A stretch of 63,457 nucleotides of DNA from NCBI GenBank assembly GCA_024642005.1, contig JAHECA010000021.1, positions 1 through 63,457 of the forward strand, read 5' to 3'. Of the stretch, positions 919 through 48,935 are shown piece by piece. This DNA is from Robiginitalea sp. Its GTDB lineage: Bacteria > Bacteroidota > Bacteroidia > Flavobacteriales > Flavobacteriaceae. Numbering within the stretch: position 1 is the stretch's first letter; the number at the start of each line of letters is the position of its first letter. The notes below the pieces were generated by a model. The model was not told the DNA's origin and searched no databases. It worked only from the letters and a program-made list of their open reading frames with translations. The translations under genes were made by a program, and so were the position numbers.

Positions 919-961
919 TAAAGGTAACCCAGCCCCTTTCCCTTCCCTATGATATAGGTCA
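919..961 (-). promoter_or_regulatory. Composite Crp/Fnr-type promoter, stress protein operon
   Basis: The plus strand shows TGATATAGGTCA at 950-961 (TGACCTATATCA in the direction of transcription). A minus-strand -7 box TACCTTTA lies at 926-919. The centres are exactly 33 bp apart, as in eight other promoters of this window. Predicted transcription start near 915. Confidence 0.7.
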
Positions 962-1014
962 GTTCTCAGGGCGTGAAGAAGGCCATTTACCTTCCGTTTC
1001 TGGGGCAAGTTCGC

Positions 1015-1022
1015 TACCTTTA
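1015..1022 (+). promoter_or_regulatory. Candidate -7 box for deoC-deoD
   Basis: TACCTTTA matches the Bacteroidetes TAnnTTTG element and ends only 4 bp before the ATG at 1027, so a start site at the usual distance would fall on or next to the initiation codon and give a leaderless mRNA. No clear -33 TTG is visible. The shared TGAY-N4-RTCA site at 950-961 is not at the 33 bp distance for this gene. Confidence 0.4.
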
Positions 1023-1026
1023 CCCC

Positions 1027-1725
1027 ATGCCTTCCGCAGAAACATCCGGAAGCCGGCTGCCCCACCGGCCGCTTGCCTCCTACATCGACCACACTTTGCT
1101 GAGCCCGGTGGCTACAGAGGCAGAAATCGTGCAGCTGTGCCAGGAAGCCCTCGAGCACCGTTTCAGGGCCGTATGCGTAAACGGCTGCAACCTGGAAACG
1201 GCCCGCGGGGTGCTGCAGGGCAGCGCTGTTTCCCTGGCCGCCGTGGTCGGTTTCCCGCTGGGGGCCATGGCTACCGAGGCCAAGCTGTGCGAGGCCGAAG
1301 CCTGCCTGCTGGGCGGGGCCGAAGAACTCGATATGGTGCTGAACCTCGGCTGGATGAAAGCAGGCAACCTGAAAGCCATCGCCACGGAACTCCGCATGGT
1401 GCGCGATGCCGCCCCAGATACCACCCTAAAGCTGATCCTGGAGACCTGTTTTCTCGACGAGGCACAAAAAACGACCGCCTGCCGCCTGGCCCTCGAAGCG
1501 GGCTGGGACTTTGTCAAAACCTCGACCGGCTTCGGCAAGGGCGGGGCTACCCTGGCCGATGTACGGCTGATGAAGCGCCTGGCCGACAACCGGATGCAGG
1601 TGAAGGCTTCGGGGGGCATACGCGATCTCGAGGCTGCCCTGGACTTTATCGAGGCAGGGGCAGACCGCCTGGGCACTTCTTCAGGGCTGGCCCTGATGGA
1701 GGCCTTTAAAAAAAGATTCCCATGA
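1027..1725 (+). CDS. deoC: Deoxyribose-phosphate aldolase
   Basis: A 232-residue class I aldolase that cleaves 2-deoxyribose-5-phosphate to glyceraldehyde-3-phosphate and acetaldehyde in deoxynucleoside salvage. The Schiff-base lysine is K164 in DFVKTSTGF; the second active-site lysine is K193 in VKASGG; D102 in LDMVLN matches the E. coli catalytic Asp. The reading frame is open from a GTG at 973, but the 18 extra residues do not resemble the family, and a -7 box just before 1027 supports the ATG there. Its stop overlaps the deoD start (ATGA), showing translational coupling with the phosphorylase that supplies deoxyribose-1-phosphate. No phosphopentomutase is seen in the window. Confidence 0.95.
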   Translation: MPSAETSGSRLPHRPLASYIDHTLLSPVATEAEIVQLCQEALEHRFRAVCVNGCNLETARGVLQGSAVSLAAVVGFPLGAMATEAKLCEAEACLLGGAEELDMVLNLGWMKAGNLKAIATELRMVRDAAPDTTLKLILETCFLDEAQKTTACRLALEAGWDFVKTSTGFGKGGATLADVRLMKRLADNRMQVKASGGIRDLEAALDFIEAGADRLGTSSGLALMEAFKKRFP

Positions 1726-2456: not shown

Positions 2457-2499
2457 TGATGCAGATCATTTCAGAAACCGACTGCATGGCAGACCTTGC
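2457..2499 (+). promoter_or_regulatory. Composite Crp/Fnr-type promoter, DUF2267 gene
   Basis: TGATGCAGATCA at 2457-2468 is followed after 23 bp by the -7-like box GACCTTGC at 2492-2499. The operator is identical to that of nrdJ when both are read in the direction of transcription. Predicted start near 2503, giving a leader of about 20 bases. Confidence 0.7.
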
Positions 2500-2523: not shown

Positions 2524-2976
2524 ATGGCCTTACATTTCGATCAATTTGCCCGTGAAGGGAACGCCTTTTTGAAGGAATACGCCAAGCACATGGCTTTTGG
2601 CGGCGACACTGACAAGGCGGGCCGGGTTTTTACGGCAATCATGCACGCCCTGCGCGATATTATCCCGGTCAATGAATCCCTGCAAATGATTGCGCAGTTT
2701 CCGATGTTCCTCAAAGCGGTTTACGTGAACGGCTGGACCACCCGCAGGTCTCCCACCGACATCCGGCGTACGGAAGACTTCCTGGAACTGGTCCGCAAAC
2801 ACGGGGGCGTTGCCGCCCCGAACGATCTCGGGGAAGACGACGACCGCGTGGAGCAGTACGTGCAACTCACCTTCATCTACCTGCGGAAGTACGTTTCCCT
2901 GGGCGAGATGGAAGATGTGCGCGATACCCTGCCCAAAGACCTGAAACACATGATTTATTCCAACCTCATGTTTTAG
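2524..2976 (+). CDS. DUF2267 family protein
   Basis: A 150-residue soluble, helical protein without signal peptide or membrane segment. The block AGRVFTAIMHALRDIIPV, followed by an AQFP motif and VNGW, matches the DUF2267 pattern (ALxxLxxRLPxxEAxxLAxQLPxxLRxxYxxGW). Members often lie near universal stress proteins and other low-oxygen or dormancy genes; their molecular function is not established. The gene stands alone between its own promoter and a terminator hairpin at 3000-3032. The nearby Usp and ribonucleotide reductase genes under the same type of promoter suggest a role in the same response. Confidence 0.75.
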   Translation: MALHFDQFAREGNAFLKEYAKHMAFGGDTDKAGRVFTAIMHALRDIIPVNESLQMIAQFPMFLKAVYVNGWTTRRSPTDIRRTEDFLELVRKHGGVAAPNDLGEDDDRVEQYVQLTFIYLRKYVSLGEMEDVRDTLPKDLKHMIYSNLMF

Positions 2977-3735: not shown

Positions 3736-5451
3736 CTAAAGCTGACAGGACGCCGCACCCTTGCAATGCTGGAGCACCTGGTCGGCCCTGGAGCCATCGC
3801 GGTATACCGTCACCCCTTTAAGCCCCATTTTCCAGGCTTGGAGGAAGAGGCCTGAAACTTCCTTTTGCGCGGTATGCCCGGGCAGGTTGATGGTCTTGGC
3901 CACCGCATTGTCGGTGTGCTGCTGAAAGGCCTGTTGGTGCTTCAAATGGTATGGCCAGGGTATTTCATGGGCCGTCGCGAACAGCTCCCTCAAGGAGCCC
4001 GGCAGGTTTTTCAGGGAGGCAAGGCTTCCCGTTTCCCGTATGGCTGCCTCTGTCTGCGCATTCCAGTAACCGAGTTGCCCGAGCACCTCCCGGGCCACCG
4101 GGTCGGTTTCGAGCTGCACCCTGCCGCCGAGTATGCCCACCCGCCTGTAAGCTAAAGCGTACAGGGGTTCAATGGAATAGGAAGTGCCCGCCAAAATGGA
4201 AATGCTCCCTGTCGGGGCAATGCTGTTGCAACTGGCATTGCGCATGGGTCGGGCCGGGGCGTAAACGCTGCGGGGCCAGTTTGGAAAAGTACCCCGTTCT
4301 GCAGCCAGGCTTTCAGAAGCCGCGTAGCTGGCCTCCCTGACCAAGGCCATAACCTGCCCGGCCAGGGCCACGGCCTCCTCAGAGGCATAGGGCAGCCCGA
4401 GGCGGAGCAGCGCCTGCCCCCACCCCATTACCCCCAGGCCCACTTTCCGGTTGCCCCGGGTTATGGCTTCGACCTCCGGAAGGAGGTAATGGTTTACCGT
4501 AATGACATCATCGAGGAAACGGATGCCCGTTTGGACGCAATCACGGAGTTTTGGCCAATCAAAAACAGCCTTTCCGGGAGCCTCCTCCTTGAGCATGCGC
4601 GCGAGGTTTACCGAACCCAGGTTGCAGCTTTCAAAGGGCAGCAGCGGCAATTCCCCGCAGGGGTTGGTGGCCTCGAGCCTGCCCAGCCCGGGCACCGGGT
4701 TGCCCCGGTTAACCGCATCGAGGAAGAGCAGGCCGGGGTCGCCCCCGTGCCAGGCCTCCCCGCAGAGGGCCTCCCATACCTCCCGGGCCGGCAGCCGGCC
4801 TGCCGCTTTCTTGTTCCGGGGGTTTACAAGCTCCCAGGCTTCCTCGTTTTCAAGGGCCGTCATAAAGCGGTCGCTCACCCCTACCGAAAGGTTGAAGTTG
4901 TGCAGGTTCCCGTCGGGGTGCTTGGCCCGGATGAACTCCATAATATCGGGATGGTCGGCATTGAGGATTCCCATATTGGCCCCCCTGCGCCGGCCGCCCT
5001 GCTTGATCTGCTCGGTGGCCGCATCGAAGACGCGGATAAAGCCCACCGGGCCCGAGGCAGCCCCCTGCCCTCCGCCAACCGGATCGCCTCTGGGCCTTAG
5101 GCTTGAAAAGTTGAAGCCGGTGCCCCCGCCACTCTGGTGGATCAGGGCCGTACTGGTCAGGGCGCCAAAAATGTCTTCGAGCCGGTCGGGTACCGGCAGT
5201 ACGAAGCAGGCGCTCAACTGGCCTCCCGGCAGCCCGGCATTCATCAGCGTGGGCGAATTGGGCAGAAATTCGAGCGCGCGCATAGCCGCGTAAAACCGCG
5301 CTTCCCAGGCCGGTTGACTGGTGCCCTCTGCGGCTGCCACGGCCCGTGCCACGCGCCCGAAGAGGCCGTCGGCGTCTTCGGCTACCTGCCCGTCGGGGCC
5401 CCGTCTCAGGTAGCGGGCCTTGAGTATTTCCAGGGCGTTATCGGTAAGCAT
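3736..5451 (-). CDS. nrdJ: Adenosylcobalamin-dependent ribonucleotide reductase (class II)
   Basis: A 571-residue oxygen-independent ribonucleotide reductase. The radical-site motif NPCGE gives N263, C265 (thiyl radical) and E267. C82 (LSACFVLP) and C276 (ESCNLGSVNL) form the expected active-site disulfide pair, and the C-terminus ends with a reducible pair C563/C569 (HCKGAASC). The protein lacks an N-terminal ATP cone, so it should not be switched off by dATP at that site, and it is at the short end of the class. There is no NrdR-box-like repeat and no cobalamin riboswitch in its leader; instead it has a Crp/Fnr-type promoter at 5501-5543. It probably supplies dNTPs when an aerobic class I enzyme, presumably encoded elsewhere, cannot work. 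It needs cobalamin made or imported by genes outside this window. Confidence 0.93.
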   Translation of the reverse strand: MLTDNALEILKARYLRRGPDGQVAEDADGLFGRVARAVAAAEGTSQPAWEARFYAAMRALEFLPNSPTLMNAGLPGGQLSACFVLPVPDRLEDIFGALTSTALIHQSGGGTGFNFSSLRPRGDPVGGGQGAASGPVGFIRVFDAATEQIKQGGRRRGANMGILNADHPDIMEFIRAKHPDGNLHNFNLSVGVSDRFMTALENEEAWELVNPRNKKAAGRLPAREVWEALCGEAWHGGDPGLLFLDAVNRGNPVPGLGRLEATNPCGELPLLPFESCNLGSVNLARMLKEEAPGKAVFDWPKLRDCVQTGIRFLDDVITVNHYLLPEVEAITRGNRKVGLGVMGWGQALLRLGLPYASEEAVALAGQVMALVREASYAASESLAAERGTFPNWPRSVYAPARPMRNASCNSIAPTGSISILAGTSYSIEPLYALAYRRVGILGGRVQLETDPVAREVLGQLGYWNAQTEAAIRETGSLASLKNLPGSLRELFATAHEIPWPYHLKHQQAFQQHTDNAVAKTINLPGHTAQKEVSGLFLQAWKMGLKGVTVYRDGSRADQVLQHCKGAASCQL

Positions 5452-5500: not shown

Positions 5501-5543
5501 CCAAACTACAAAACGGGCACTTGCCCCCCACTGATCTGCATCA
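5501..5543 (-). promoter_or_regulatory. Composite Crp/Fnr-type promoter, nrdJ
   Basis: Read leftward, the operator is TGATGCAGATCA (5543-5532) and the -7 box is TAGTTTGG (5508-5501), centre spacing exactly 33 bp. Predicted start near 5497, leader about 46 bases. Between this promoter and the rightward one at 5665-5707 lies about 120 bp of AT-richer sequence without a gene. Confidence 0.75.
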
Positions 5544-5664: not shown

Positions 5665-5707
5665 TGATTCAGGTCATTGCTCACCCCTGTGTCGCAGGGT
5701 AACTTGG
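5665..5707 (+). promoter_or_regulatory. Composite Crp/Fnr-type promoter, PepSY-like gene
   Basis: TGATTCAGGTCA at 5665-5676 and -7 box TAACTTGG at 5700-5707, centre spacing exactly 33 bp. A TTG directly follows the operator. Predicted start near 5711. Confidence 0.7.
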
Positions 5708-5758: not shown

Positions 5759-6268
5759 ATGAAAAAAATCCTAGCCGGCCTTTTGTGTATTGGGTTGACC
5801 GCCCCGGCACTGGCCCAAATCGTTAAAACGGAACAGCTTTCCGAAGTGACTGTGTATGCGACCAACTACAAGTACCTCAACAGCATAGGTTCTGAGGAAC
5901 CGGCAGCTATTCCGGTAGAAATGCTGGAGCGGAAGGTGGCTGCGTTTGACCTGTTGAATTCAGAATTCTACAGCGATGAGTACGACCTGTACCAGATCAG
6001 TTTTTACATCCCCGAGGGAAAAATCCTGGCAGCTTATGACGCCGACGGAAAAATCATCCGCACCGTGGAACGCTACGAAGACATCGCCCTCCCGCCGTCT
6101 GTACGCGAAGCCGTGGCAGACCGTTTTCCGGGCTGGACTATTGAAAAAGACGTTTTTGCCGTGAGCTATCACGACCAAAAAGGAGTTACCAAAAAGTACA
6201 AACTGGTACTTTCCAACGGCGACAAAAAAGTCCGCGTAAAATTGGACGAGACAGGAAATTTCCTGTAA
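5759..6268 (+). CDS. Exported PepSY-like (DUF2874-type) protein
   Basis: A 169-residue protein with a clear signal peptide (MKKILAGLLCIGLTAPALAQ). The mature part has the fold pattern of small periplasmic PepSY-like proteins of Bacteroidetes: alternating strands with DADGKIIRTVERYEDIALPP, then VREAVADRFPGW followed by a strand, and a C-terminal YKLVLSNGDKKVRVKLDETG. Relatives are often misnamed as nicotinate-nucleotide adenylyltransferase; no nucleotidyltransferase motif is present. The function is unknown. It is driven by its own Crp/Fnr-type promoter, back to back with nrdJ, and is closed by the strong hairpin at 6335-6371. Confidence 0.65.
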   Translation: MKKILAGLLCIGLTAPALAQIVKTEQLSEVTVYATNYKYLNSIGSEEPAAIPVEMLERKVAAFDLLNSEFYSDEYDLYQISFYIPEGKILAAYDADGKIIRTVERYEDIALPPSVREAVADRFPGWTIEKDVFAVSYHDQKGVTKKYKLVLSNGDKKVRVKLDETGNFL

Positions 6269-8154: not shown

Positions 8155-8937
8155 TCAGAGGTCATAGAAAATATCGGAAACAAAAACAGCGACGAAGTCG
8201 ACAAAGAACAGCAGCAGGGAAGCGATCACCACGGCCGTGTTGGCGGCCTTGCCCACCCCGGCGGTGCCCTTTTTGCAGTAATACCCCTTATAGGTGCCCA
8301 CCAGGCCGATCACGAAGCCGAAAAAGAACGACTTGACGGTGGCGGGAATCAGGTCTCCGTACGACAGCGCCTCGAACACCGTATTGAAGTACAGGCGAAA
8401 ACTCACGGCCCCTTTCAGGTTTTCGACCAGGGCTGAGCCGAAGAGGGCGATCAGGTCGCCGAAGACCACCAGCAGGGGCAGCATGAGGGTGGTGGCCAGA
8501 ATGCGGGTGGCCACCAGGTATTTAAAAGGGTTGGTGCCCGAAACTTCCATGGCGTCGATCTGTTCGGTAACCCGCATCGACCCCAGTTCGGCCCCCATGC
8601 CCGAGGCAATGCGCCCGGCACAGATCAGGGCCGTAATGACCGGGCCAATTTCCCTGACAATGGAGATGCCCACCATATTGGGCATCCAGGACACCGCTCC
8701 GAATTCGATGAGGGTGGGCCGCGACTGCAGGGTAAGCACCAGGCCGATAATGAAGCCTGTTACCAGCACCAGGGTCAGGGAGCGGTTGCCCACCTGGTAA
8801 CACTGCCGCAAGAGTTCCCGGAATTCGTAGGGCGGGCGGGCCACTTCCCTGAAAAACCGACCGGCAAAGGCCGCCAGCTCGCCAATTTCGGCCAGAAAGA
8901 GGTACACCCGGTCTTTTATGGATGCCACGTTGTTCAT
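8155..8937 (-). CDS. mlaE: MlaE family lipid ABC transporter permease
   Basis: A 260-residue inner-membrane protein with about five or six membrane segments and the MlaE hallmarks GFIIGLVLTLQS, REIGPVITALICAGRIASGM, GAELGSMRVTEQIDAMEV and the late FFFGFVIGLVGTYKGYY. It is the first gene of the mlaE-mlaF-mlaD operon. A composite Crp/Fnr-type promoter at 8946-8988 ends 8 bp before the ATG, leaving a leader of only about five bases. This places phospholipid trafficking under the same control as the class II ribonucleotide reductase. Confidence 0.92.
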   Translation of the reverse strand: MNNVASIKDRVYLFLAEIGELAAFAGRFFREVARPPYEFRELLRQCYQVGNRSLTLVLVTGFIIGLVLTLQSRPTLIEFGAVSWMPNMVGISIVREIGPVITALICAGRIASGMGAELGSMRVTEQIDAMEVSGTNPFKYLVATRILATTLMLPLLVVFGDLIALFGSALVENLKGAVSFRLYFNTVFEALSYGDLIPATVKSFFFGFVIGLVGTYKGYYCKKGTAGVGKAANTAVVIASLLLFFVDFVAVFVSDIFYDL

Positions 8938-8945
8938 ACCATCTG

Positions 8946-8988
8946 TAAAAGTAGGTCAGACCGCGTAGGATCGCTATGACGAATGTCA
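8946..8988 (-). promoter_or_regulatory. Composite Crp/Fnr-type promoter, Mla operon
   Basis: Read leftward, TGACATTCGTCA (8988-8977) and -7 box TACTTTTA (8953-8946), centre spacing exactly 33 bp. Predicted start near 8942. No -33 TTG is visible, which fits activator dependence. Confidence 0.65.
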
Positions 8989-9033: not shown

Positions 9034-10620
9034 TTATCGGGCTGCTGCTTCCCCCTGCCAGATCGAATCGAGGCCGTACACCTTGCCGTCTTGCAGTACC
9101 CATTTGCCGCCCCGGGTCCAGAGCCTCATGCGGGTATACGGGCTTTGGGGGAAGAATATCTCCGTCAGGTTCAGCCGCCCGCCATCGGCGAAAAGCTCGG
9201 CCGAAGCCCGGTCGAAGAAGATGCGCAGGTCAAGCCCTGCCCGGCTGAAATCAAGGGGGGCCGTGTGGGGCCCTTTATAAAATTCATCTGAAAATCCGCG
9301 GGGGCCCGAATTGCTGCGGTCTACCACCACCTTGTTCTCCAGGCGGTGGAAGGCAATCACCAGGTGTTCCCCGGCTTCGTTGCTTAAGGTGCAACCGAAA
9401 ATTTCGGCGGTGGTCTGCTCCAGGTCCATATCGAGGGCCAGCTCGCATTGAGACGGGCTGAAAGCCCCGGTTACTTCGAGGCCGTCGTCTATTTCGGCCG
9501 GAAGGGTCGTTTCGGAACTCCAGAGGCTGCTCACCGCCGGTACCGGCAGCGCCTTCAGGAAATAGGTGTCGCCGTTTTGCCCGAGTTCGAGCATCCTGGG
9601 CAGGGTCATGGCCGAACGCCAGGGGTGGGTGGGTACCTGCTGGGCGTACTGCCAGTTCGACATCCAGCCTATGCCCAGGCGCTGCCCCCAGCCCACCTGG
9701 GCATGGTCAAAGGTAACAAAGGCGTAGTTGTCGGCCCCGTAATCGAGCCATTGCTGGGCGGCCGGGTTGGCGCGGAAGGTGGTCCCGTCAAAGTCGCCCA
9801 CAAAATAGGAAGTGCCCGTGCCCCCTGTGGGCCCGTCTTTCTGGATGCTCACCAGGAGCACCCATTTGAGTTCCCTGCTACCCGGCATCCGCAGGGGAAA
9901 CAGGTCGGGGCACTCCCACAGGCGGGTGTCGCCCGGAATGCCGAATTCGGAGAGGTAGGCCCAGTCTTTCAGGTTGGGCGAGCCGTAAAACCTGACCCGG
10001 TCGTACACGGCCAGGGCCATCACCCATTGGTTGCTCTCGCCGTGCCAGATTACCTTGGGGTCGCGAAAGTCCTGTATGCCCGTGTCGTTGCGCAGCACCG
10101 GGTTGCCGGCGTATTTCTGCCAGCTCCGGCCCTGGTCGGGGCTGTAGGCCAGGCTCTGGTTCTGGAAGTCGGTGCGGCCGGCCTCCAGCGCCAGGGGGTC
10201 GTGCTGGGTGAAGACGGCCACCACCGGCGGAACCGAATCGCGGCCGAACCCGGAGGTATTGCGCGTATCGACCACGGCGCTGCCCGAGAAGATGTAGCCC
10301 AGCGAATCGGGGTAGATGGCGATGGGTTGCTCCTGCCAGTGCACCAGGTCGGTAGAGGTGGCATGGCCCCAGTGCATGGGGCCCCATACAGTGCTGTCGG
10401 GGTAGTACTGGTAGCTCATGTGGTATACCCCGTCGAGGTAATACAGCCCGTTCGGGTCGTTCATCCAGGCCTCGGCCGGGGTAAAGTGGAACTGGGGGCG
10501 GTGGGGTTCGTCATAGGAGGGTTTCGCAGAGGCCAAGGCTTCTGCCCCAGGCTTCGGGGTTTCCGTGCAGGCCGCCAGCAACAGGGTAACGGTGAGAATG
10601 AAGGGATGCGTTTTAGTCAT
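9034..10620 (-). CDS. Glycoside hydrolase family 32, surface or periplasmic lipoprotein
   Basis: A 528-residue beta-fructosidase-type enzyme. The signal peptide ends in a lipobox LLAAC (C18), so the enzyme should be lipid anchored. The five-bladed propeller domain has all three GH32 catalytic motifs: WMNDPNG (nucleophile D55), FRDPK (transition-state Asp) and ECPDLF (acid/base Glu). A C-terminal beta-sandwich is indicated by RIFFDRASAELFADGG. Substrate could be levan, inulin or sucrose. There is no SusC/SusD pair, fructokinase or hybrid two-component sensor beside it, so it stands alone. Two spaced GGAA-N3-TTCC-like sites lie upstream at 10696-10752. Confidence 0.93.
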   Translation of the reverse strand: MTKTHPFILTVTLLLAACTETPKPGAEALASAKPSYDEPHRPQFHFTPAEAWMNDPNGLYYLDGVYHMSYQYYPDSTVWGPMHWGHATSTDLVHWQEQPIAIYPDSLGYIFSGSAVVDTRNTSGFGRDSVPPVVAVFTQHDPLALEAGRTDFQNQSLAYSPDQGRSWQKYAGNPVLRNDTGIQDFRDPKVIWHGESNQWVMALAVYDRVRFYGSPNLKDWAYLSEFGIPGDTRLWECPDLFPLRMPGSRELKWVLLVSIQKDGPTGGTGTSYFVGDFDGTTFRANPAAQQWLDYGADNYAFVTFDHAQVGWGQRLGIGWMSNWQYAQQVPTHPWRSAMTLPRMLELGQNGDTYFLKALPVPAVSSLWSSETTLPAEIDDGLEVTGAFSPSQCELALDMDLEQTTAEIFGCTLSNEAGEHLVIAFHRLENKVVVDRSNSGPRGFSDEFYKGPHTAPLDFSRAGLDLRIFFDRASAELFADGGRLNLTEIFFPQSPYTRMRLWTRGGKWVLQDGKVYGLDSIWQGEAAAR

Positions 10621-10921
10621 GGTTCACGCTTACTGGTTCAATCGTATAGGTATTCGATGCGATGTCGGGGGTAAGGCCATAGGTCCCGGCACTTACCGGA
10701 ATGTTTCCCCCCTTGAAGGCGGCCTTTCCCGGTGCTCCCGGAATGTATCCCCAATTGCATAAGCCAGGTAACGGGTCGCCTGGCTCTGGGCCAAAAAACG
10801 CTTGCGGAGTTTTCGGAAAAACAGGATCATCGGCCGATATTCTTCCCCCTAAAATACGGTTAATTCCGATAGGACGGGACGCGTGTTGCCGGCCCGAGGT
10901 GGTGGCCGTGCAACCCAGGGT
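10621..10921. other. Gene-free region between GH32 and giant-protein gene
   Basis: About 300 bp with no credible gene. Its right part runs into the terminator of the giant gene. Its left part should hold the leftward GH32 promoter: read leftward, TACCTATA near 10653-10646 is a weak -7 candidate. The two short repeats at 10696-10752 are the only other structure seen. Confidence 0.5.
10696..10752. promoter_or_regulatory. Pair of short direct repeats upstream of GH32
   Basis: CCGGAATGTTTCCCC (10696-10710) recurs as CCGGAATGTATCCCC (10738-10752), one mismatch, offset 42 bp, which is four DNA turns. Each copy holds an imperfect inverted repeat GGAA-N3-TTCC. They may be paired binding sites of a regulator of the fructosidase gene. 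Confidence 0.35.
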
Positions 10922-10963
10922 GCTTCAAAAGAAACAGGGCCGCGATATGCTCGCGGCCCTGTT
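10922..10963 (-). terminator. Intrinsic terminator of the giant-protein gene
   Basis: A perfect 13-bp stem (AACAGGGCCGCGA at 10933-10945, complement at 10951-10963) with a 5-base loop. On the minus strand it is followed by a T-rich stretch (TCTTTTG). It begins about 30 bp after the stop codon of the giant gene. Confidence 0.8.
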
Positions 10964-22032: not shown

Positions 22033-22680
22033 TCAGCGGTGGCTGAGCCGCGACAGGGCCCGGTCGAGCCAGGCGAACCAGCCAATAAAACTCAGAAAAG
22101 TAACCTTCTGGATCAGGGGCAATGCCCTGGGGCAGCTCCCCGTCTCGTACAGGGCGTAGTTGAGCATTAATACGGTGAGGCACCAGGCCCCGAATAGTGC
22201 CGTGCCGCGGCGGCGGCCCTGCCAGAACCCGGCAATGGCGCTCAGCAGGGCAAGCCCCCCAAAGCCCCCGGCCACCCGCACGGTGATGTCGTGGGTGCCT
22301 GCGCTTAAAAAAGCCGTGGTGCCCAGGGCCACAAGGGCACTGACGCGCATCAGTTGCCGGTTCCACGCAGGCCCGCCGGCCAGGGCGGGGAGATAGGCCC
22401 ACAGGTAAGCCAGCCCGGCGCAAAGCACCCCCAGGGAGAGCCTGGCCCAGTGGCGGCCTGTATTGAGGGCGCCGCCAACAGCCCGGGTATCGAGCAGGTC
22501 GCAGAGGTAGTTGTAGCGAAAACTGAAGCCTTCCTGCCCGGGTTCTACCCATGAGCCGCCGGGGTACTGCCAGGCTGCGAGAAGGTAGAACAAAACGAAT
22601 AGCCCCATGCCGGCCAGGGGCAGGAGCCCGCGGTAAAACTTCAGTGGGCCGGGTATCGGGTATTCAGGCATTTCAGGCAT
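22033..22680 (-). CDS. DUF998-like integral membrane protein
   Basis: About 215 residues with six or seven hydrophobic segments, among them LAGMGLFVLFYLLAAWQYPG, LSLGVLCAGLAYLWAY and VSALVALGTTAFLSAG. The pattern FRYNYLCDLLDTRAVGGALN near the N-terminus and the THDI before a helix resemble DUF998 proteins, whose function is unknown. The open frame extends 40 codons further upstream to 22800, but the -7 box at 22691-22684 places the transcript start at about 22680, so translation begins at the ATG at 22680 or the one at 22671. It is divergent from the DUF2953 gene, each with its own operator of the same type. Confidence 0.65.
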   Translation of the reverse strand: MPEMPEYPIPGPLKFYRGLLPLAGMGLFVLFYLLAAWQYPGGSWVEPGQEGFSFRYNYLCDLLDTRAVGGALNTGRHWARLSLGVLCAGLAYLWAYLPALAGGPAWNRQLMRVSALVALGTTAFLSAGTHDITVRVAGGFGGLALLSAIAGFWQGRRRGTALFGAWCLTVLMLNYALYETGSCPRALPLIQKVTFLSFIGWFAWLDRALSRLSHR

Positions 22681-22683
22681 GTC

Positions 22684-22726
22684 GCAAAATAACCCCGGTG
22701 GGCCAGGCCCCAAATGATCCGGATCA
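22684..22726 (-). promoter_or_regulatory. Composite Crp/Fnr-type promoter, DUF998 gene
   Basis: The operator TGATCCGGATCA (22715-22726) is a perfect palindrome. Read leftward, the -7 box TATTTTGC lies at 22691-22684, centre spacing exactly 33 bp. The predicted start is at the ATG itself or within ten bases of it. Confidence 0.7.
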
Positions 22727-22753: not shown

Positions 22754-22796
22754 TGACCCAGGTCATGGCCCGGGCGGCAGCCGGTGACGACCTTTG
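22754..22796 (+). promoter_or_regulatory. Composite Crp/Fnr-type promoter, DUF2953-GerW operon
   Basis: TGACCCAGGTCA at 22754-22765 and -7 box GACCTTTG at 22789-22796, centre spacing exactly 33 bp. The predicted start near 22800 lies downstream of an in-frame GTG at 22784, which therefore cannot initiate this protein from this promoter. Confidence 0.7.
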
Positions 22797-22813
22797 CCAA
22801 AAATTCAGATGCC

Positions 22814-23308
22814 GTGTGGTACGCATTGCCTTTCCTGCTGCTGGCCGCCCTTTTGGCCTACCTGCTCTGGATGCCGCTGGAATTGCGGATAGACAGTTCC
22901 AGCAGGCTGTTTTACCTGCGCGCAGGCGTTCTGGCCCGGGCCAGCCTGGAACCCGAGCCCGAACAGTTGCTGCAACTGCACCTCAGGGCAGGGTTCTGGC
23001 ACTTTTACTGGCGCCCAACCGATTTTCGGGAGGGAGGCAGGCCAAAAAAGGCGCCCGGAAAGCGCAAAAGCAAGAGGAACCTCACGGCCCCGCAGCTGCT
23101 CAGGCTCATCAGGAGTTTCAGGGTACGGCGCTTCCGCTGGGAGCTCGATTCGGGAAACCCGGTGCTCAATGCCCGGCTCTACCCGGTGTTTTGCCTGCTC
23201 GACCATACCCTGGGCGGGTTCGGTATCAATTTCCAGGACCGCAACCAGCTGGAGCTGCGCCTTGTAAACCGGCCGGTTCGCATCCTGCTCGCACTTGTTA
23301 AACGTTAA
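22814..23308 (+). CDS. DUF2953-like membrane-anchored protein (YtfI type)
   Basis: About 165 residues: an N-terminal membrane helix (PFLLLAALLAYLLWMPLELR), then a beta-rich soluble part ending with the conserved block RRFRWELDSGNPVLNARLYP, followed by GGFGINFQDRNQ and LVNRPVR. This fits DUF2953, whose Bacillus member YtfI is encoded beside the GerW-like YtfJ; the same pairing occurs here, 11 bp apart. I place the start at GTG 22814 because the predicted transcript begins near 22800; the frame is open back to GTG 22784. The basic stretch KKAPGKRKSKR lies in a loop. The function in a non-sporulating bacterium is unknown. Confidence 0.65.
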   Translation: MWYALPFLLLAALLAYLLWMPLELRIDSSSRLFYLRAGVLARASLEPEPEQLLQLHLRAGFWHFYWRPTDFREGGRPKKAPGKRKSKRNLTAPQLLRLIRSFRVRRFRWELDSGNPVLNARLYPVFCLLDHTLGGFGINFQDRNQLELRLVNRPVRILLALVKR

Positions 23309-23770: not shown

Positions 23771-23813
23771 TGACCTGGGTCATTGTTGGCGCTGTAACTG
23801 CCCCATACCTTGG
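23771..23813 (+). promoter_or_regulatory. Composite Crp/Fnr-type promoter, flavodoxin gene
   Basis: TGACCTGGGTCA at 23771-23782 and -7 box TACCTTGG at 23806-23813, centre spacing exactly 33 bp. TTG directly follows the operator. Predicted start near 23817, leader about 18 bases. Confidence 0.75.
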
Positions 23814-23834: not shown

Positions 23835-24398
23835 ATGGAAGCTGCCATCCTCTACAGCGGAAAATACGGGAGCACCGAGCAGTATGCCCAGTGGTTGCAG
23901 GAACTCACGGGTATTGCCGCCTACGATATACGCAAGCCGCTGCCCGACCTCTCAGCGACCGAGTTCCTGGTCCTTGGCAGCTCGATAATTCTGGGAGCGC
24001 CTACCTTTAAAAAATGGCTGTTCCGAAACTGGGAGCAATTCCGGAAAAAACCGGTCTTGCTGTTCACCGTTTCGGGTACGGCTCCCGACCACCCCAATCT
24101 GATTACCTGGCTCAATTTGCACCTGAGCCCCGAGATGCTGGCGCACCTGAAATATGTGCCGCTCCGGGGCCGGCTCGACCTTATGCAATTGCCCTGGTGG
24201 TTGCGCCCCCTGCTCAGGCTGGCTGCCCGTATGACCAAGGACCCCGAAGAAGCTCAGCGGATGCGGGAAGGGTTCGACTATATGGACCGCGACTCCCTGC
24301 AGCCCATTGTCGAATGGATTTTCCTCCGGCAGGTGAGTGCGATTGCGCCGAAACCCGTACCGGCTTCCCGGCCAATCCCAGAACACCTGGAAATCTGA
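23835..24398 (+). CDS. Flavodoxin-domain protein (HemG-like)
   Basis: A 187-residue cytoplasmic protein. The FMN phosphate loop is YSGKYGSTEQYA at residues 7-18, followed by LSATEFLVLGSSIILGAP (strand and second flavin loop) and PVLLFTVSGTAP. This is the long-chain single-domain type often annotated as flavodoxin or protoporphyrinogen oxidase HemG (Flavodoxin_5). HemG-type enzymes pass electrons from protoporphyrinogen to quinones and can work without oxygen; I cannot show that substrate from the sequence. The C-terminal third is helical and basic with no heme genes adjacent. Its own composite promoter fits an anoxic role. Confidence 0.8.
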   Translation: MEAAILYSGKYGSTEQYAQWLQELTGIAAYDIRKPLPDLSATEFLVLGSSIILGAPTFKKWLFRNWEQFRKKPVLLFTVSGTAPDHPNLITWLNLHLSPEMLAHLKYVPLRGRLDLMQLPWWLRPLLRLAARMTKDPEEAQRMREGFDYMDRDSLQPIVEWIFLRQVSAIAPKPVPASRPIPEHLEI

Positions 24399-38570: not shown

Positions 38571-40076
38571 ATGGAAGCAACATCCCAAGAATTATGGCTG
38601 GTTACCGGCAGCCAGCACCTGTACGGACCCGAAACGCTGCAGCAAGTGGCCGGGCATTCCGAAACCATCGCCCGGGCCCTTACCGAATCGGGCCACCTGC
38701 CGGTGCGCGTGGTTTTCAAACCGGTGGTGAAAAGCCCCGACGAGATAACGAGCCTGTGCCGGGAGGCCAACAGCACCCCGGCCTGCCTGGGCCTCATTAC
38801 CTGGATGCACACCTTTTCGCCTGCCAAGATGTGGATCGCAGGTTTGGAGCTGCTGCAAAAACCCCTCTGCCACCTGCACACCCAGTTCAATGCCGAAATC
38901 CCCTGGGGGGAGATCGACATGGACTTCATGAACCTGAACCAGTCGGCCCATGGCGACCGCGAATTTGGCTTCCTGCTGGCCCGCATGCGCAAAAACCGCA
39001 AAGTGGTGGTTGGGCATTGGCGCGAGCCCCGGGTACAGGAAAAGCTGGGTATCTGGGCCCGGGTAGCCATGGGATGCGACGAGATGAGACGGCTGAAGGT
39101 AGCCCGCTTCGGCGACAACATGCGCGAAGTGGCCGTTACCGAGGGCGACAAGGTGTCGGCCCAGATGCGGTTTGGTTTTTCGGTAAACGGGTATGACTCC
39201 TCCGACATAACCGGCCGAATGGAGGCTGTTGCGGAAGAACAGGTAGACCGGTTGGTGGCGGTTTATGAAGATGCCTATACCCTGGCCCCTTCCCTGGCAT
39301 CTGGCGGGGCACAGCGGGCCTCCCTGCGCGAAGCGGCCCGGATCGAACTCGGGCTTCGCGACTTTCTGGAAGCAGGCGGCTTCAAAGCTTTTACCGACAC
39401 GTTTGAAAACCTGGGCCGCCTCAGGCAATTGCCCGGTATTGCCGTGCAGCGGCTCATGGCCGACGGCTATGGCTTCGGTGCCGAGGGCGACTGGAAAACC
39501 GCCGCCCTGCTACGCGCCATGAAGGTCATGGCCAACGGCCTTAAAGGCGGCACGTCCTTCATGGAAGACTATACCTACCACTTTTCCGGGTCGGGCGGCT
39601 ACGTGCTGGGCGCCCACATGCTTGAGATCTGCCCGTCCATTGCCGACGGCAGGCCGCGTTGCGAGGTACACCCCCTGGGTATCGGCGGGCGCGAAGACCC
39701 CGTTCGCCTGGTATTCGACTCCCCGGCCGGGCCGGCCCTGAACGCCTCCCTGATCGACCTGGGCAACCGGTTTCGCCTGGTTGTGAATGAGGTGACGGCT
39801 GCCAAACCCCCGAAAGACCTGCCCAAACTGCCCGTGGCCCGGGCCTTCTGGGAGCCTCAGCCCGACCTGGAGACAGGGGCCGCGGCCTGGATCCTGGCGG
39901 GCGGGTCGCACCACACCATCTACACCCAGGCCCTTACCACGGAATATCTGGAAGATTTTGCCGAACTTTTCGGCATTGAACTGTTGGTGATCGACGCCCA
40001 AACCCGGGTGCGCGATTTCAAAGACCGGCTGCGCGCCAATGAAAGCTATTACCACCTTTTCCAACACCGCATGTAA
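38571..40076 (+). CDS. araA: L-arabinose isomerase
   Basis: A 501-residue cytoplasmic isomerase converting L-arabinose to L-ribulose with Mn2+. It opens with the family start [19 protein letters not shown], has [45 protein letters not shown], the metal-binding segments around [18 protein letters not shown] and [10 protein letters not shown], and the His ligands in [16 protein letters not shown] and SHHTIY. Length matches E. coli AraA (500). Twelve bases separate it from araD. Confidence 0.97.
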
Positions 40077-40125
40077 CCGGGCTCACTTCTCCCGGGCACC
40101 GCTCACCTGAAAGCACCCCACACCT

Positions 40126-41307
40126 ATGAAACTTTTTAAATCAACCTCCATTTTCGTACTTTCCCTGCTCCTGGCCCAACTGGGCTGGCAGTGCAAAGGC
40201 GATTCCAAAGACGCCAAACCCGAAACCATGGAACAGTCTGCCCCCATTACCCGAATTGAAAAAAGCGCGTATGGGAATTTGCCCGACGGGAGCCATGTGG
40301 CCAAGTATACCCTGCGCAATGCCTCAGGCATGGAGGTAGACATCATTAGCCTGGGGGGTATCATTACCCGCTGGACCGCCCCCGACCGCAACGGGGTTTT
40401 CAAGGACATCGTGCTCGGCTTTGATTCCCTTCAGCCCTACGTGGAAGACAATCCCTTTTTCGGGGCCCTGGTGGGGCGGTATGGCAACCGTATAGCGGGC
40501 GGGCAATTCACCCTCGATGGGGAATCCTACTCCCTGGCCCGGAACAACGGCGCCAACCACCTCCACGGGGGCATCAAAGGCTTCGACAAAGTGCTCTGGG
40601 AGGCCTTTCCGGGTCGCGAAACGGACCGGGCCCGGCTCATGCTCGATTACCACAGCCCCGACGGGGAAGAAGGGTACCCGGGCAAGCTCGACGTGCGGGT
40701 GGTGTACACCCTGACTGACGACAATGCCCTGGAAATCGACTACCAGGCCGTTACCGACAAGCCTACCGTGGTGAACCTGACCAACCATTCCTATTTCAAC
40801 CTTTCGGGCGACTTTACCCACGACATCCTCGACACCGAATTGCAGCTTAATGCCGATGCCTACCTGCCGGTCGATACCGGCCTGATCCCCACCGGGGAAA
40901 TACGCCCCGTGGCCGGCACACCTTTTGACTTCACAACACCCAAGACCATAGGCCGCGACGTGGAAGCCGACGACCCTCAGCTGCGCGTGGGAGGCGGGTA
41001 CGACCACTGTTGGGTGCTGAAACGCGAGGGACCGGGCCTGGCACCGGCCGCCACGGCCTACCACCGTGAAAGCGGTCGCCTGCTGCAGGTTTCGACCGAT
41101 GAACCGGCCGTTCAGTTTTACATCGGCAATTTCCTGGACGGGCACCTGCCGGCCAAAGGGGGCGGCTCCTACGGGAAACGCGCCGGGTTCTGCCTGGAGA
41201 CCGAACATTACCCCGATTCCCCGAACCGGCCCGAATTCCCGTCGACCCGGCTCGACCCCGGCCAGATTTACCGCTCCCGCACCGTCTTTGCCTTTTCAAC
41301 CCGCTAA
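40126..41307 (+). CDS. galM: Aldose 1-epimerase (mutarotase), exported
   Basis: A 393-residue galactose-mutarotase-like protein with an N-terminal export signal (FVLSLLLAQLGWQC); the Cys could be lipidated, but GWQC is not a strong lipobox. Motifs: GNRIAGGQF, NNGANHLHGGIKGFDK (His), LTNHSYFNL (second catalytic His), GGYDHCWVL and FCLETEHYPDSPN (catalytic Glu). It equilibrates sugar anomers outside the cytoplasm before uptake. It lies between araA and the symporter gene and completes an arabinose uptake module. Confidence 0.93.
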   Translation: MKLFKSTSIFVLSLLLAQLGWQCKGDSKDAKPETMEQSAPITRIEKSAYGNLPDGSHVAKYTLRNASGMEVDIISLGGIITRWTAPDRNGVFKDIVLGFDSLQPYVEDNPFFGALVGRYGNRIAGGQFTLDGESYSLARNNGANHLHGGIKGFDKVLWEAFPGRETDRARLMLDYHSPDGEEGYPGKLDVRVVYTLTDDNALEIDYQAVTDKPTVVNLTNHSYFNLSGDFTHDILDTELQLNADAYLPVDTGLIPTGEIRPVAGTPFDFTTPKTIGRDVEADDPQLRVGGGYDHCWVLKREGPGLAPAATAYHRESGRLLQVSTDEPAVQFYIGNFLDGHLPAKGGGSYGKRAGFCLETEHYPDSPNRPEFPSTRLDPGQIYRSRTVFAFSTR

Positions 41308-41316
41308 CACCCCCGC

Positions 41317-42936
41317 ATGAAAACACTTGACTTCCTCGACTGGATTACCATATCCCTGTACTTCCTGATTTTGCTTGGCATTGCCGTATGGGTAATCAGG
41401 CGGAAAAAGGAAAATACGGAAGACTACTTCCTGGCAGGGCGCAATGTGGGCTGGTTTGTGGTGGGCGCCTCCATTTTCGCCTCCAACATCGGCTCTGAGC
41501 ACGTGGTGGGCCTGGCCGGCACCGGGGCCAGCAACAAGCTGCCCCTGCTGATCTATGAGATCCACGCCTGGATCGTGCTCTTGCTGGGCTGGGTGTTTTT
41601 GCCCTTCTATGCCCGCTCGGGGGTCTTTACCATGCCCGAGTTCCTCGAGAAGCGGTTCGACGCCCGCTCGAGGTGGATCCTTTCCATCTTTTCGATTGTG
41701 GCCTACGTGCTCACCAAAATATCGGTTACCATCTACGCCGGGGGCATTGTGGTTTCTGCCCTGCTCGGCATCGATTTCTGGACCGGGGCCATTGCAACGG
41801 TGGTGCTAACCGGCCTTTACACGGTGCTTGGCGGCATGCGCGCAGTGGTATACACCGAGGCCCTGCAAGCCGTGGTCCTGGTTGTCGGGGCCGCCACCCT
41901 CACCCTAATCGGCCTCGACCATGTGGGCGGCTGGAACAGCATGCGCGAAACGGTTTCCCCGGAATACCTGAACATGTGGCGATCGCTCTCCGATGCCGAC
42001 TTCCCCTGGTTGCCCCTGGTAATTACCAGCACCATTGTCGGCATCTGGTACTGGTGCACCGACCAGTACATCGTGCAGCGCGCCCTCACGGCCAAATCCA
42101 TCAAGGAAGGCCGGCGCGGCACCATCTTCGGGGCCCTGCTCAAGCTGATGCCGGTATTCCTGTTCCTCATCCCTGGCGTGATAGCGCTGACCCTTAAAAT
42201 GCGGGGCGAACTGGAGTGGGAGACCCCCGACCAGGCCTTCCCCGTGCTGATGAGCAACCTGTTGCCTTCCGGCCTGCGCGGGCTGGTGGCCGCCGGCCTG
42301 CTGGCCGCCCTGATGAGCTCGCTGGCCTCCGTCTTCAACTCCTGCTCTACCCTGTTCACCGTAGACATTTACAAGAAGCTCAAACCCAATACCCCTGAGA
42401 AGAAGCTGGTGCGTACCGGGCAGATCGCCACGGTGATCGTGGTCATCATCGGCATTATCTGGATCCCCATCATGGCGAATATCTCCGGGGTGCTTTACGA
42501 GTACCTGCAGAGCGTGCAGTCGTACATTGCCCCGCCCATTGCGGCGGTATTCCTGCTGGGCATCTTCCACAAGCGCATCAACGCCCAGGGTGCCTTCGTT
42601 ACCCTGATCACCGGTTTTGTGGTGGGTGCCCTGCGCATCGTTCTCGAACTGGTCAAGGGGTCCCTGGAGCCGGGCAGTATCTGGCATACCCTGGGGGCCA
42701 CCAATTTCCTGACTTTCGCCGCCTGGTTCTTCCTGTTCTGCATCGTGCTGATCGTGGTGGTGAGCTGGCTCACCCCGGCCCCGGCCCCCGAAAAGGTGGC
42801 CAACCTCACCTTTGCTACCATTTCGCCGGAAGAAAAGGCCCGGAACAAGAACAGCTACAATTGGAAGGATATCACCTTTTCGGTCCTGATCGTGGCGGTG
42901 GTGGTCTGGATCATGATCTGGTTCAACGGGAAGTAG
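41317..42936 (+). CDS. Sodium/solute symporter (SSS family), probable arabinose transporter
   Basis: A 539-residue polytopic membrane protein with about 14 helices. SSS motifs include NVGWFVVGASIFASNIGSEH (substrate and sodium site), VFTMPEFLEKRFDARSRW, TGLYTVLGGMRAVVYTEALQ, WYWCTDQYIVQRALTAKS, GLRGLVAAGLLAALMSSLAS and FNSCSTLFTVDIYKKL. This is the SGLT/VSGLT-like sugar branch. As the last gene of the arabinose operon it most likely carries L-arabinose across the inner membrane. No SusC/SusD outer-membrane pair is in the locus. Confidence 0.92.
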   Translation: MKTLDFLDWITISLYFLILLGIAVWVIRRKKENTEDYFLAGRNVGWFVVGASIFASNIGSEHVVGLAGTGASNKLPLLIYEIHAWIVLLLGWVFLPFYARSGVFTMPEFLEKRFDARSRWILSIFSIVAYVLTKISVTIYAGGIVVSALLGIDFWTGAIATVVLTGLYTVLGGMRAVVYTEALQAVVLVVGAATLTLIGLDHVGGWNSMRETVSPEYLNMWRSLSDADFPWLPLVITSTIVGIWYWCTDQYIVQRALTAKSIKEGRRGTIFGALLKLMPVFLFLIPGVIALTLKMRGELEWETPDQAFPVLMSNLLPSGLRGLVAAGLLAALMSSLASVFNSCSTLFTVDIYKKLKPNTPEKKLVRTGQIATVIVVIIGIIWIPIMANISGVLYEYLQSVQSYIAPPIAAVFLLGIFHKRINAQGAFVTLITGFVVGALRIVLELVKGSLEPGSIWHTLGATNFLTFAAWFFLFCIVLIVVVSWLTPAPAPEKVANLTFATISPEEKARNKNSYNWKDITFSVLIVAVVVWIMIWFNGK

Positions 42937-46649: not shown

Positions 46650-46676
46650 ATCGGGCTTCTTATAGCCCGATATCTC
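46650..46676. terminator. Hairpin between MscS and AsmA-like genes
   Basis: Stem ATCGGGCT / AGCCCGAT with a TCTTAT loop. It is preceded by A7 and followed by ATCTCTT, so its T tract is better on the minus strand, although both flanking genes read rightward. It may still stop transcription from the MscS gene. Confidence 0.5.
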
Positions 46677-46706
46677 TTCGATGGGCTCAACCAAAAAAGA
46701 CCGATC

Positions 46707-48875
46707 ATGGCCTCCCGGAAAAAAATACTGAAATACACAGGTATCAGTCTTTTGGTGGCGCTGATACTCTTGCTGATCTTCTTGCCAACCCTGGCCAAAA
46801 ACTACGCCATCAAAAACAGCAAAACCCTGGTGGGGCGCCAGATCGACATGGAAAGGCTGAGGCTGAATTATTTTACCGGCACGGTAAGGGTCTACGGCTT
46901 CAAGATGTTCGAAGCGAACGGGCAGGATGTTTTTGTGTCCTTTGACACGCTGGTGGTAAACACGGTCCCCTATAAATACCTCAGCAATGTGAAAGCCCTC
47001 GACCAGTTCTACCTCCAGGGCCTTGAGGTCAATCTTGCCAAAAGGGATTCCACCTTCAACTATGACGACCTGGTAGCCTTCCATAGCGCACCCGACAGCG
47101 CTGAAACCGAAGAAGCCGAAGCCTTTAAATACCTGCTCAATAACATTGAACTGAAAGATGCCACATTCCGCTTTTACGATGCCGATGTGGACCACACCAC
47201 GGAAATAGCCGATTTTTCCCTGTTCATCCCTTCCATCGCCTGGGACCAGGCGCATGAAAGCGATGCCGACATTGCATTCAACCTCGGCGAAACTGCCGAG
47301 GTCAGGGTTAAATCCAACGTTCACCCGGGCACGGGCAATTTCAAGAGCAGCGTGGAGATCGACAGCCTGCAGTTGAGTTCCTTTTACAACTATATCCTTG
47401 AATACGCCAATATCAATAGCCTGGAAGGTACGGTCAATGCCGTGATCGAATTGAGAGGGAACATTAACAGTCCCATGGAGACCCTTGTCTCCGGGGAAGT
47501 GGAGGCCCTGAATCCACTTATGACGGATCAGAAAGACGTCGCTTTCCTGTCGGGTAAAAAAGTCCTTTGCACCCTGGGCGAGATCAATTATGCAAAGGAT
47601 TCCTATATCATAGACGACCTGGTTTTTGAACAACCCTACGTGAAATTCGAGCTCGATTCGGTTTCGAACAACTTTTTCCGGATTTTCAACTACGATCCGG
47701 AAGCCCCTGGAGACGACAGCGATTCGCTGTACTATGCCATCAACAGGGTGGAGGTACTACAGGGACGCATGGACTATACCGACAACCTGACCGGTGCCCC
47801 GTTCAATTATGCCCTGAGCGAAATTGCCATGGACGCCGACAGCATCCAAAGCGACAGTGAATGGGTAGACCTGCTGGCCACCATGGTGCTCAACGAGCGC
47901 GGCAAGCTCAAAGCCGAGGTAGGGTATAACCCGTCAGACCCCATGTTTGCCACCATCGACATCGCTATCGAGGAATTCCAGCTCTCAGACCTCAACATCT
48001 ATTCCAATTACTATATGGGGCATTCCATCCTGACCGGCGATATGTTCTACTTTTCAGACACGAAGATCACGGGAGGCCAGCTGGAGAGCGAAAACCACCT
48101 GCTCATCAAGCAGGTTGCCGTCGAGAATATCAAAGGGGGGCTTTTTGCCATCCCCCTGAAACTGGCCGTATGGCTGCTCAAAGACCGGAACGGGGATATT
48201 GAGCTGGACGTGCCCGTGAGAGGAAACCTGGATGACCCCACCGTGGACGCCTGGGCCCTGGTGGGTACAACCCTGAAGAAAAAGATCTTCAATGCCACCG
48301 ATAATCCCATTTTGCCCCTGGCCCGCTATATTGACGCCGACCCTGATGACCTGAAAAGCATTGCCGTGCATTATCCCGACACGGCCCTGACCGCAGACCA
48401 GACCCGGCAGCTCGACCTGATTCTGCAACTCGAGCGCGAAAAGGAAGGATTGAAGGTGGAAATGAACTTCGTGGGGGAAGATTCCCTTCAGCTCGGAATT
48501 GCCCTGTCTCATGCACGCCAGCGGTACGGCGATGCTACACGCCGCGACCCCGACCTCGCATCTGAGGAATTTCAAACCTTCATGAGGGAACAAACCGCGG
48601 CAGACTCCCTGGGAGGTGAGGGTTCCCTCCGCCAGTACGCCTTGGCCATCGGGGCCGATTCCCTGGCTACGGAGTACATGGACACCATGATTTCCAGGGT
48701 AGATGCTTTCCTGAAGGCCAGGCAACCCGATACCCGTATAGAAGTGCGAAAAGCCAAAGTGAGCGACAAGGAGAACATAGACGCCCCCCCCCAATTCAGC
48801 ATGAAATATACGCTCAGGGAGAAGGAAGAAGAAGCCGCACCGGCACCCCTCCCGGAAAGCACTCCTGAAGGTTGA
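46707..48875 (+). CDS. AsmA-like / DUF748 domain protein
   Basis: A 722-residue protein with one N-terminal membrane anchor (TGISLLVALILLLIFLPTLA) and a long beta-rich periplasmic region. Features of DUF748 and AsmA-like proteins are RLRLNYFTGTVRVYGFKMFE near the start, VNTVPYKYL, and the C-terminal PLKLAVWLLKDRNGDIELDV followed by PVRGNLDDP. Such bridge-like proteins are thought to carry lipids from inner to outer membrane. The last 120 residues are acidic and probably disordered. It is followed by a CDP-alcohol phosphatidyltransferase gene under a separate promoter. Confidence 0.85.
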   Translation: MASRKKILKYTGISLLVALILLLIFLPTLAKNYAIKNSKTLVGRQIDMERLRLNYFTGTVRVYGFKMFEANGQDVFVSFDTLVVNTVPYKYLSNVKALDQFYLQGLEVNLAKRDSTFNYDDLVAFHSAPDSAETEEAEAFKYLLNNIELKDATFRFYDADVDHTTEIADFSLFIPSIAWDQAHESDADIAFNLGETAEVRVKSNVHPGTGNFKSSVEIDSLQLSSFYNYILEYANINSLEGTVNAVIELRGNINSPMETLVSGEVEALNPLMTDQKDVAFLSGKKVLCTLGEINYAKDSYIIDDLVFEQPYVKFELDSVSNNFFRIFNYDPEAPGDDSDSLYYAINRVEVLQGRMDYTDNLTGAPFNYALSEIAMDADSIQSDSEWVDLLATMVLNERGKLKAEVGYNPSDPMFATIDIAIEEFQLSDLNIYSNYYMGHSILTGDMFYFSDTKITGGQLESENHLLIKQVAVENIKGGLFAIPLKLAVWLLKDRNGDIELDVPVRGNLDDPTVDAWALVGTTLKKKIFNATDNPILPLARYIDADPDDLKSIAVHYPDTALTADQTRQLDLILQLEREKEGLKVEMNFVGEDSLQLGIALSHARQRYGDATRRDPDLASEEFQTFMREQTAADSLGGEGSLRQYALAIGADSLATEYMDTMISRVDAFLKARQPDTRIEVRKAKVSDKENIDAPPQFSMKYTLREKEEEAAPAPLPESTPEG

Positions 48876-48892
48876 CCCACCGCGCACTGCGC

Positions 48893-48935
48893 TGATGAAA
48901 ATCATTTGTATGGCGGCGGCATTACCGTAAATTGG
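48893..48935 (+). promoter_or_regulatory. Composite Crp/Fnr-type promoter, phosphatidyltransferase gene
   Basis: TGATGAAAATCA at 48893-48904 and -7 box TAAATTGG at 48928-48935, centre spacing exactly 33 bp. Predicted start near 48939, so translation should begin at ATG 48953 and not at the in-frame TTG at 48932. Confidence 0.65.

Follow-up and report, generated by a model that had tools for sequence, protein, structure and literature searches.

Nine probable Class II activator-dependent promoters in Robiginitalea sp. share one operator spacing and point to two Crp/Fnr-type regulators

Several described regulatory systems come close to the one considered here, a set of nine promoters in a 63,457-nt stretch of DNA from the marine flavobacterium Robiginitalea sp. 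(G+C 57%; hereafter the window) that share a palindromic TGAY-N4-RTCA operator. Escherichia coli FNR has its Class II operator centre near -41.5 and counts hemN among its targets; FixLJ-FixK of rhizobia feeds a two-component input into a Crp/Fnr-type output that controls the cbb3 oxidase and hemN; and DosR of mycobacteria brings Usp, Hsp20 and class II ribonucleotide reductase (RNR) genes under two-component control at low oxygen. In the open-access literature, we recognised no paper on a TGAY-N4-RTCA operator or on a Bacteroidota FNR regulon.

The Robiginitalea system resembles each of these in part. With E. coli FNR it shares the Crp/Fnr fold and a TGA-N6-TCA core; however, the half-site is (A/C)TGAY rather than TTGAT, and the promoters carry a Bacteroidota -7 box. 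The likeness to FixLJ-FixK lies in a two-component input and a Crp/Fnr-type output, but here the receiver and the Crp module form one protein (P0001, the receiver-CRP fusion, hereafter RR-CRP), and a separate FNR-like protein (P0002, hereafter Fnr) seems to use the same operator frame. The putative two-component control and the Usp, Hsp20 and class II RNR targets recall DosR, which differs in its LuxR-type output and in its operator. HcpR2 of Bacteroides, a Crp/Fnr regulator of the same phylum, differs in its motif, GTAACnnnnGTTAC, and in a predicted regulon that in most Bacteroides is hcp only, as given in excerpts of its description (PMC1274295).

We regard the nine elements as quite probably Class II activator-dependent promoters, whose single operator frame would serve two regulators and which in the window would be used mainly by RR-CRP. 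A sequence-only reading of the window had placed the operators, each with a box 23 bp further on in the direction of its gene and 33.0 bp between the two centres, and both the coordinates and the distances were confirmed. The features are as follows, with the -7 boxes scored on the six fixed letters of TAnnTTTG:

950..961, minus strand: operator TGACCTATATCA, Usp promoter
919..926, minus strand: -7 box TACCTTTA, 23 bp from operator 950
41..907, minus strand: universal stress protein (Usp) gene, Pfam PF00582
2457..2468, plus strand: operator TGATGCAGATCA, DUF2267 promoter
2492..2499, plus strand: weak box GACCTTGC of operator 2457, 3/6 letters
2524..2976, plus strand: DUF2267 gene, PF10025
5532..5543, minus strand: operator TGATGCAGATCA, class II RNR promoter; next base G, not T
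5501..5508, minus strand: box TAGTTTGG of operator 5532
3736..5451, minus strand: adenosylcobalamin-dependent ribonucleotide reductase (NrdJ), TIGR02504 above cut-off
5665..5676, plus strand: operator TGATTCAGGTCA, ahead of the gene for a 169-aa protein
5700..5707, plus strand: box TAACTTGG of operator 5665
5759..6268, plus strand: 169-aa protein, earlier called PepSY-like
8977..8988, minus strand: operator TGACATTCGTCA, MlaE promoter
8946..8953, minus strand: box TACTTTTA of operator 8977
8155..8937, minus strand: MlaE permease gene, PF02405
22715..22726, minus strand: operator TGATCCGGATCA, ahead of the gene for a 215-aa protein
22684..22691, minus strand: box TATTTTGC of operator 22715
22033..22680, minus strand: 215-aa protein, earlier called DUF998
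22754..22765, plus strand: operator TGACCCAGGTCA
22789..22796, plus strand: box GACCTTTG of operator 22754
22784..23308, plus strand: open reading frame (ORF) earlier called DUF2953, preceding a Spore_YtfJ gene (23320-23685)
23771..23782, plus strand: operator TGACCTGGGTCA, flavodoxin promoter
23806..23813, plus strand: box TACCTTGG of operator 23771
23835..24398, plus strand: flavodoxin-domain gene, PF12724
48893..48904, plus strand: operator TGATGAAAATCA
48928..48935, plus strand: box TAAATTGG of operator 48893
48932..49552, plus strand: CDP-alcohol phosphatidyltransferase gene, PF01066

Three of the names carried over from the sequence-only reading did not find support: the proteins called DUF998 and PepSY-like have no Pfam match at E 0.001 (the former no NCBIfam match either), and the DUF2953 ORF is likewise without a Pfam match. 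In the phosphatidyltransferase ORF the first TTG falls inside the box, and a likelier ATG start lies further in. The MlaE start codon stands 7-8 bp past the box in six genomes (window 8937-8953 and orthologues), which predicts a leader of just 3-4 bases or so.

The spacing is exact well beyond what random sequence yields. The window holds 14 TGAY-N4-RTCA palindromes, nine of them being the operators of these composites (operator plus box); none of the remaining five (14426, 22341, 26121, 36379 and 42434) is followed by a KANNTTKS box at spacing 23, and the best of them (14426, minus direction) reaches 3/6 TAnnTTTG letters. When KANNTTKS boxes are counted after all 14 palindromes in both directions, 7 fall at spacing 23 and 1 across the other spacings from 5 to 59, whereas 20,000 draws of 28 random window positions gave a maximum of 3 boxes at any single spacing. 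First-order Markov simulations of the window (n = 100) contained a mean of 2.1 palindromes (maximum 6) versus the 14 observed. Composites averaged 0.08 in the simulations (maximum 2), while the window itself has 8 whose box reaches 4/6 letters or more. The strict KANNTTKS pattern fits 7 of the 9 window boxes, those of operators 950 and 8977 ending in A, and a T directly follows the operator at 8 of the 9 sites.

A scan of further genome sequence, a check proposed along with the sequence-only reading, gave the same peak: in 763 kb of the same genome outside the window, which contain 62 palindromes, 13 boxes with at least 5/6 letters stand at spacing 23, compared with at most 3 elsewhere. With a threshold of at least 4/6 letters, 21 composite matches were obtained outside the window, some of them being two directions of one operator and some having doubtful targets. 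The targets recognised by Pfam or NCBIfam include hemN, ccoS, and genes for a heavy-metal ATPase, Hsp20, YtxH, BON and archease, as well as two Usp genes; phosphoenolpyruvate (PEP) carboxykinase was named by eye only. These matches occur in clusters. The first 20 kb of contig C4 contain seven, at five operators, and C63 has three, at two operators; C9 (313 kb) has six and C21 (37 kb) four, whereas 120 kb of C3 gave one and 180 kb of C59 none. The dense stretch of C4 carries Usp, BON, archease and hydrolase genes.

The same rule recurs in related genomes. A set of 80 RR-CRP loci (1.59 Mb) contains 553 palindromes, where about 97 would be expected at equal base use, and 368 boxes at spacing 23 versus 4-31 at other spacings. 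Likewise, 20 Fnr loci (280 kb) hold 55 composites at spacing 23 versus 1.6 on average and no more than 10 at others, and five islands from the genus (280 kb) hold 46 versus at most 10 elsewhere. A logo of 351 distinct sites from the RR-CRP loci, whose box letters, having been selected for, carry no evidential weight of their own, is asymmetric, with T after the operator in 97% and C or A before it in 86% (T before TGA in 9%); at the Fnr loci, C or A precedes TGA in 55/55 sites. Conservation of the spacing upstream of orthologues, the other check proposed from the window, was seen for MlaE, which keeps operator, spacing and box in 5/5 genus orthologues, and for DUF2267, which keeps the operator and the 23-bp spacing in 6/6 orthologues found, with weak boxes (own genome not counted). 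All five genus islands contain a Usp gene with a composite, and all five also have a composite at a gene similar to 5759..6268, matched by eye on the protein start. Between genus orthologues the 23-bp spacers have diverged although operator and spacing are kept. That these are chance palindromes near ordinary promoters is hardly credible: the -7 box is a general promoter element and boxes are therefore common upstream of genes, but the random-draw null, the spacing-23 peak in the own genome and in the sets gathered around candidate sites, and conservation across diverged spacers all contradict it.

The position of the operator relative to transcription starts can be estimated from promoter data of Flavobacterium psychrophilum, excerpts of which place the TAnnTTTG box at -12 to -5 (PMC9723704). 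Because the box centre is then -8.5, an operator centred 33 bp upstream lies at -41.5. A Crp/Fnr-type operator at the Class II position, as the sequence-only reading had it, is thus borne out by the 33.0-bp centre distance together with a box position carried over from F. psychrophilum starts. As for the Bacteroidota primary sigma promoter, the TAnnTTTG -7 box is present, as seen in the peak at spacing 23; TTTG at the -33 place occurs in 2/9 window sites and in 4/351 related sites (N19, counted at that spacing only), which essentially agrees with the earlier remark that no conserved -33 TTG is seen. A regulator bound at -41.5 could also stand in the way of polymerase, and the operator might then be a repressor site overlapping the -35 region. 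We consider this improbable, since -33 TTTG is absent in 347/351 sites, as expected of activator-dependent promoters, and -41.5 is the classical activating position.

Four HTH_Crp_2 matches were found in the own genome, three of them above cut-off. RR-CRP carries a PF00072 receiver domain, the phospho-acceptor Asp (D52) and K104 being present in 81/81 sequences; its identity is 65-69% to three Robiginitalea records, 42% to a fourth (a metagenome-assembled genome) and 53% to two Maribacter, values that place the window in Robiginitalea or a near relative. The gene directly upstream encodes a 1200-residue PAS-HisKA-HATPase histidine kinase, and a composite with a box of 4/6 letters precedes the kinase-RR-CRP operon, which RR-CRP probably controls itself. 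Fnr combines a cNMP-binding-like domain with a Crp-type HTH, scores 101.8 bits versus the NCBI Fnr cut-off of 228, and is encoded beside the heavy-metal ATPase and ccoS genes. The recognition helices, TATETTIR in P0001 and TATESCIR in P0002, conform to a common E-x-x-I-R pattern, which is found in 25/25 Fnr and in 74 of the 75 RR-CRP sequences with a listed helix (81 in all); the serine of the FNR recognition helix is an isoleucine here. Cysteines 5, 8, 54 and 107 are invariant in 25/25 Fnr orthologues. Three of the four cysteines of Aliivibrio FNR, which we take to be cluster ligands, align in P0002, while the third in order is absent, and neither the enterobacterial four-cysteine arrangement nor the TTGAT half-site is found in this system. 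Our guess is that the cysteine at residue 54 is a relocated cluster ligand; AlphaFold models of four Fnr orthologues have a mean pLDDT of 47, too poor to place the cysteines. The two genes are neighbours in some relatives: at loci L120, L093 and L086 (about 10001-12700) the RR-CRP gene is followed by fnr after about 1 kb, and the two are close by coordinates in several further genomes.

The two regulators occur independently across the family. With classes set by hand (a score of 220 bits or more for RR-CRP, an E-value of 1e-50 or less for Fnr), 199 family genomes, own included, comprise 49 with both, 36 with RR-CRP only, 69 with Fnr only and 45 with neither. We searched for hemN in 36/36, 34/69 (picked by hand, not at random), 40/49 and 43/45 (G020 and G194 left out) of the RR-only, Fnr-only, both and neither classes, respectively, and found it in 27/36, 29/34, 40/40 and 5/43. 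The exact 23-bp composite stands upstream of hemN in 26/27 RR-only and 28/29 Fnr-only genomes and in 20/20 with both regulators (20 of the 40 upstream regions examined), that is, in 74/76 examined genomes with a candidate regulator. Genomes with neither regulator gave 0/5; of these five hemN, two show 32% identity and one is truncated at the end of its contig. RR-CRP alone might read all sites while Fnr acts elsewhere, as the density of composites at the 80 RR-CRP loci and the composite upstream of its own operon could suggest; however, this appears highly unlikely given that the hemN composite is kept in 28/29 genomes with Fnr and without RR-CRP, and that the 20 Fnr loci hold 55 composites in 280 kb.

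The central four bases of the operator correlate with the regulators present. Any central G/C was found in 0/28 Fnr-only versus 9/26 RR-only hemN sites (p = 0.0008 on counts), and locus G+C, considered as a cause of this difference, is 0.365 and 0.376, respectively. Where both regulators are present, the centre is AT in 19/20 hemN sites, as predicted beforehand, and contains G/C in 1/20. For the own genome we required a box score of at least 4 and a T after the operator, which leaves out window sites 2457 and 5532 (three central G/C each) and the single C3 site (G/C centre). The sites of C9, the contig with fnr, then have 0, 1, 0, 0, 0 and 0 central G/C (three of them within 15 kb of fnr), whereas the counts run from 1 to 4 at the 19 sites found in the window and on C21, C4 and C63. 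All nine window operators contain at least one central G/C, and in the genus islands G or C occurs in the centre of 40/41 composites with T after the operator.

Gene order also links the window to RR-CRP. For MlaE, DUF2267, NrdJ and flavodoxin in relatives, the gene shares a contig with RR-CRP in 10/14 gene-genome pairs, at a distance of 7 to 33 kb, and the genus members G191 and G201 have neither an RR-CRP match nor any of the four tested genes. In G202, two Usp genes with composites stand between RR-CRP and DUF2267 and correspond to the Usp genes with which C21 ends and the window begins, an order in which C21 is followed by the window; this suggests that C21 joins the window start. Together, centres and gene order favour window operators of RR-CRP type rather than FNR type. 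The sequence-only reading had assumed one activator; this is not supported, since two regulators with a common E-x-x-I-R pattern fit the site and the window operators look like those of RR-CRP. A single FNR-like activator, P0002, controlling all sites while RR-CRP does something else is accordingly unlikely. Such a view would suit the position of fnr next to the heavy-metal ATPase gene and ccoS with their composites, the E-x-x-I-R helix of Fnr, and the hemN composite kept in G191, which has Fnr without RR-CRP. On the other side stand the hemN composite kept in 26/27 genomes with RR-CRP and without Fnr, window centres holding G/C that is unseen in 28 Fnr-only hemN sites, and window genes that track RR-CRP by synteny and are co-absent in 2/3 genus members lacking it.

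Several observations weigh against assigning the sites to two regulators and those of the window mainly to RR-CRP. Of the RR-only hemN sites, 17/26 have an A/T-only centre, so that the centre excludes RR-CRP nowhere, and the window G+C of 57% by itself favours central G/C, although the C9 sites of the same genome differ. The neither class has only two clear full-length hemN orthologues, and other Crp-like proteins (L003 and a weak L004) are possible binders. Four of the 14 gene-genome pairs are on other contigs (three in G204, an assembly of 430 contigs, and the G200 flavodoxin), and G206 (280 contigs) has MlaE and DUF2267 with no RR-CRP match. The flavodoxin composite is present in 1/3 relatives and absent in 2/3, and that of NrdJ is present in 1/2 orthologues and absent in 1/2. 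In random 20-kb stretches (one of them 240 bases), composites numbered 0 for RR-only genomes (400 kb), 4 for Fnr-only genomes (400 kb) and 1 for genomes with neither regulator (380 kb), too few to separate the regulator classes; sites are therefore clustered. Finally, the genomes are related, and counts overstate independence.

Under the two-regulator reading, a Crp/Fnr-fold dimer would bind (A/C)TGAY-N4-RTCAT centred at -41.5 and activate the main Bacteroidota sigma factor at the TAnnTTTG -7 box, making up for the missing -33 element. The FNR-like protein, with its four invariant cysteines and oxygen as its presumed signal, would want an A/T centre, as at hemN, ccoS and the heavy-metal ATPase gene. 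RR-CRP, presumably driven by the multi-PAS histidine kinase, would also accept central G/C, as at the Usp, Hsp20, YtxH, MlaE, class II RNR and DUF2267 genes, and the nine window sites would be mainly its own, in a stress island. We tentatively propose, as quite conceivable, that Flavobacteriaceae have one merged regulon. In it the FNR-like protein, its cluster cysteine relocated, and the receiver-CRP fusion would compete for a single operator frame at -41.5 or pass it from one to the other, and the central four bases would determine whether a promoter responds to both sensors or to the two-component system alone.

The low-oxygen or stress regulon of the sequence-only reading is supported by the target list obtained here (hemN, ccoS, heavy-metal ATPase, class II RNR, Usp, Hsp20 and BON suit it); its single activator is not supported. 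For the window genes, gene content points to low oxygen as a possible signal. Under oxygen limitation in F. psychrophilum, the cbb3 oxidase is strongly up and heme biosynthesis enzymes are also up, according to excerpts of the study; a word search finds neither Fnr nor Crp in its main text (PMC9723704).

Other window content includes a 2394-aa protein with S8 peptidase, MBG and secretion-tail domains (10995-18176, minus strand), a 181-aa protein with a PycTM (Pycsar effector) domain (18528-19073, plus strand), and a 658-aa protein with TPR repeats and a class III adenylate/guanylate cyclase domain (19853-21826, minus strand). An arabinose-use cluster (26553-42933; GH127, GH2, ASD1, FGGY kinase, AraA and SSF transporter) contains two palindromes, 36379 and 42434, both without a box.

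Little was found in print on activators at Bacteroidota promoters, although these bacteria are prominent in both sea and gut. With so exact a spacing rule, low-oxygen and stress genes can readily be predicted in genomes of Flavobacteriaceae. Moreover, the natural occurrence of genomes with RR-CRP only, Fnr only or both allows one to ask how two sensors may share one operator.

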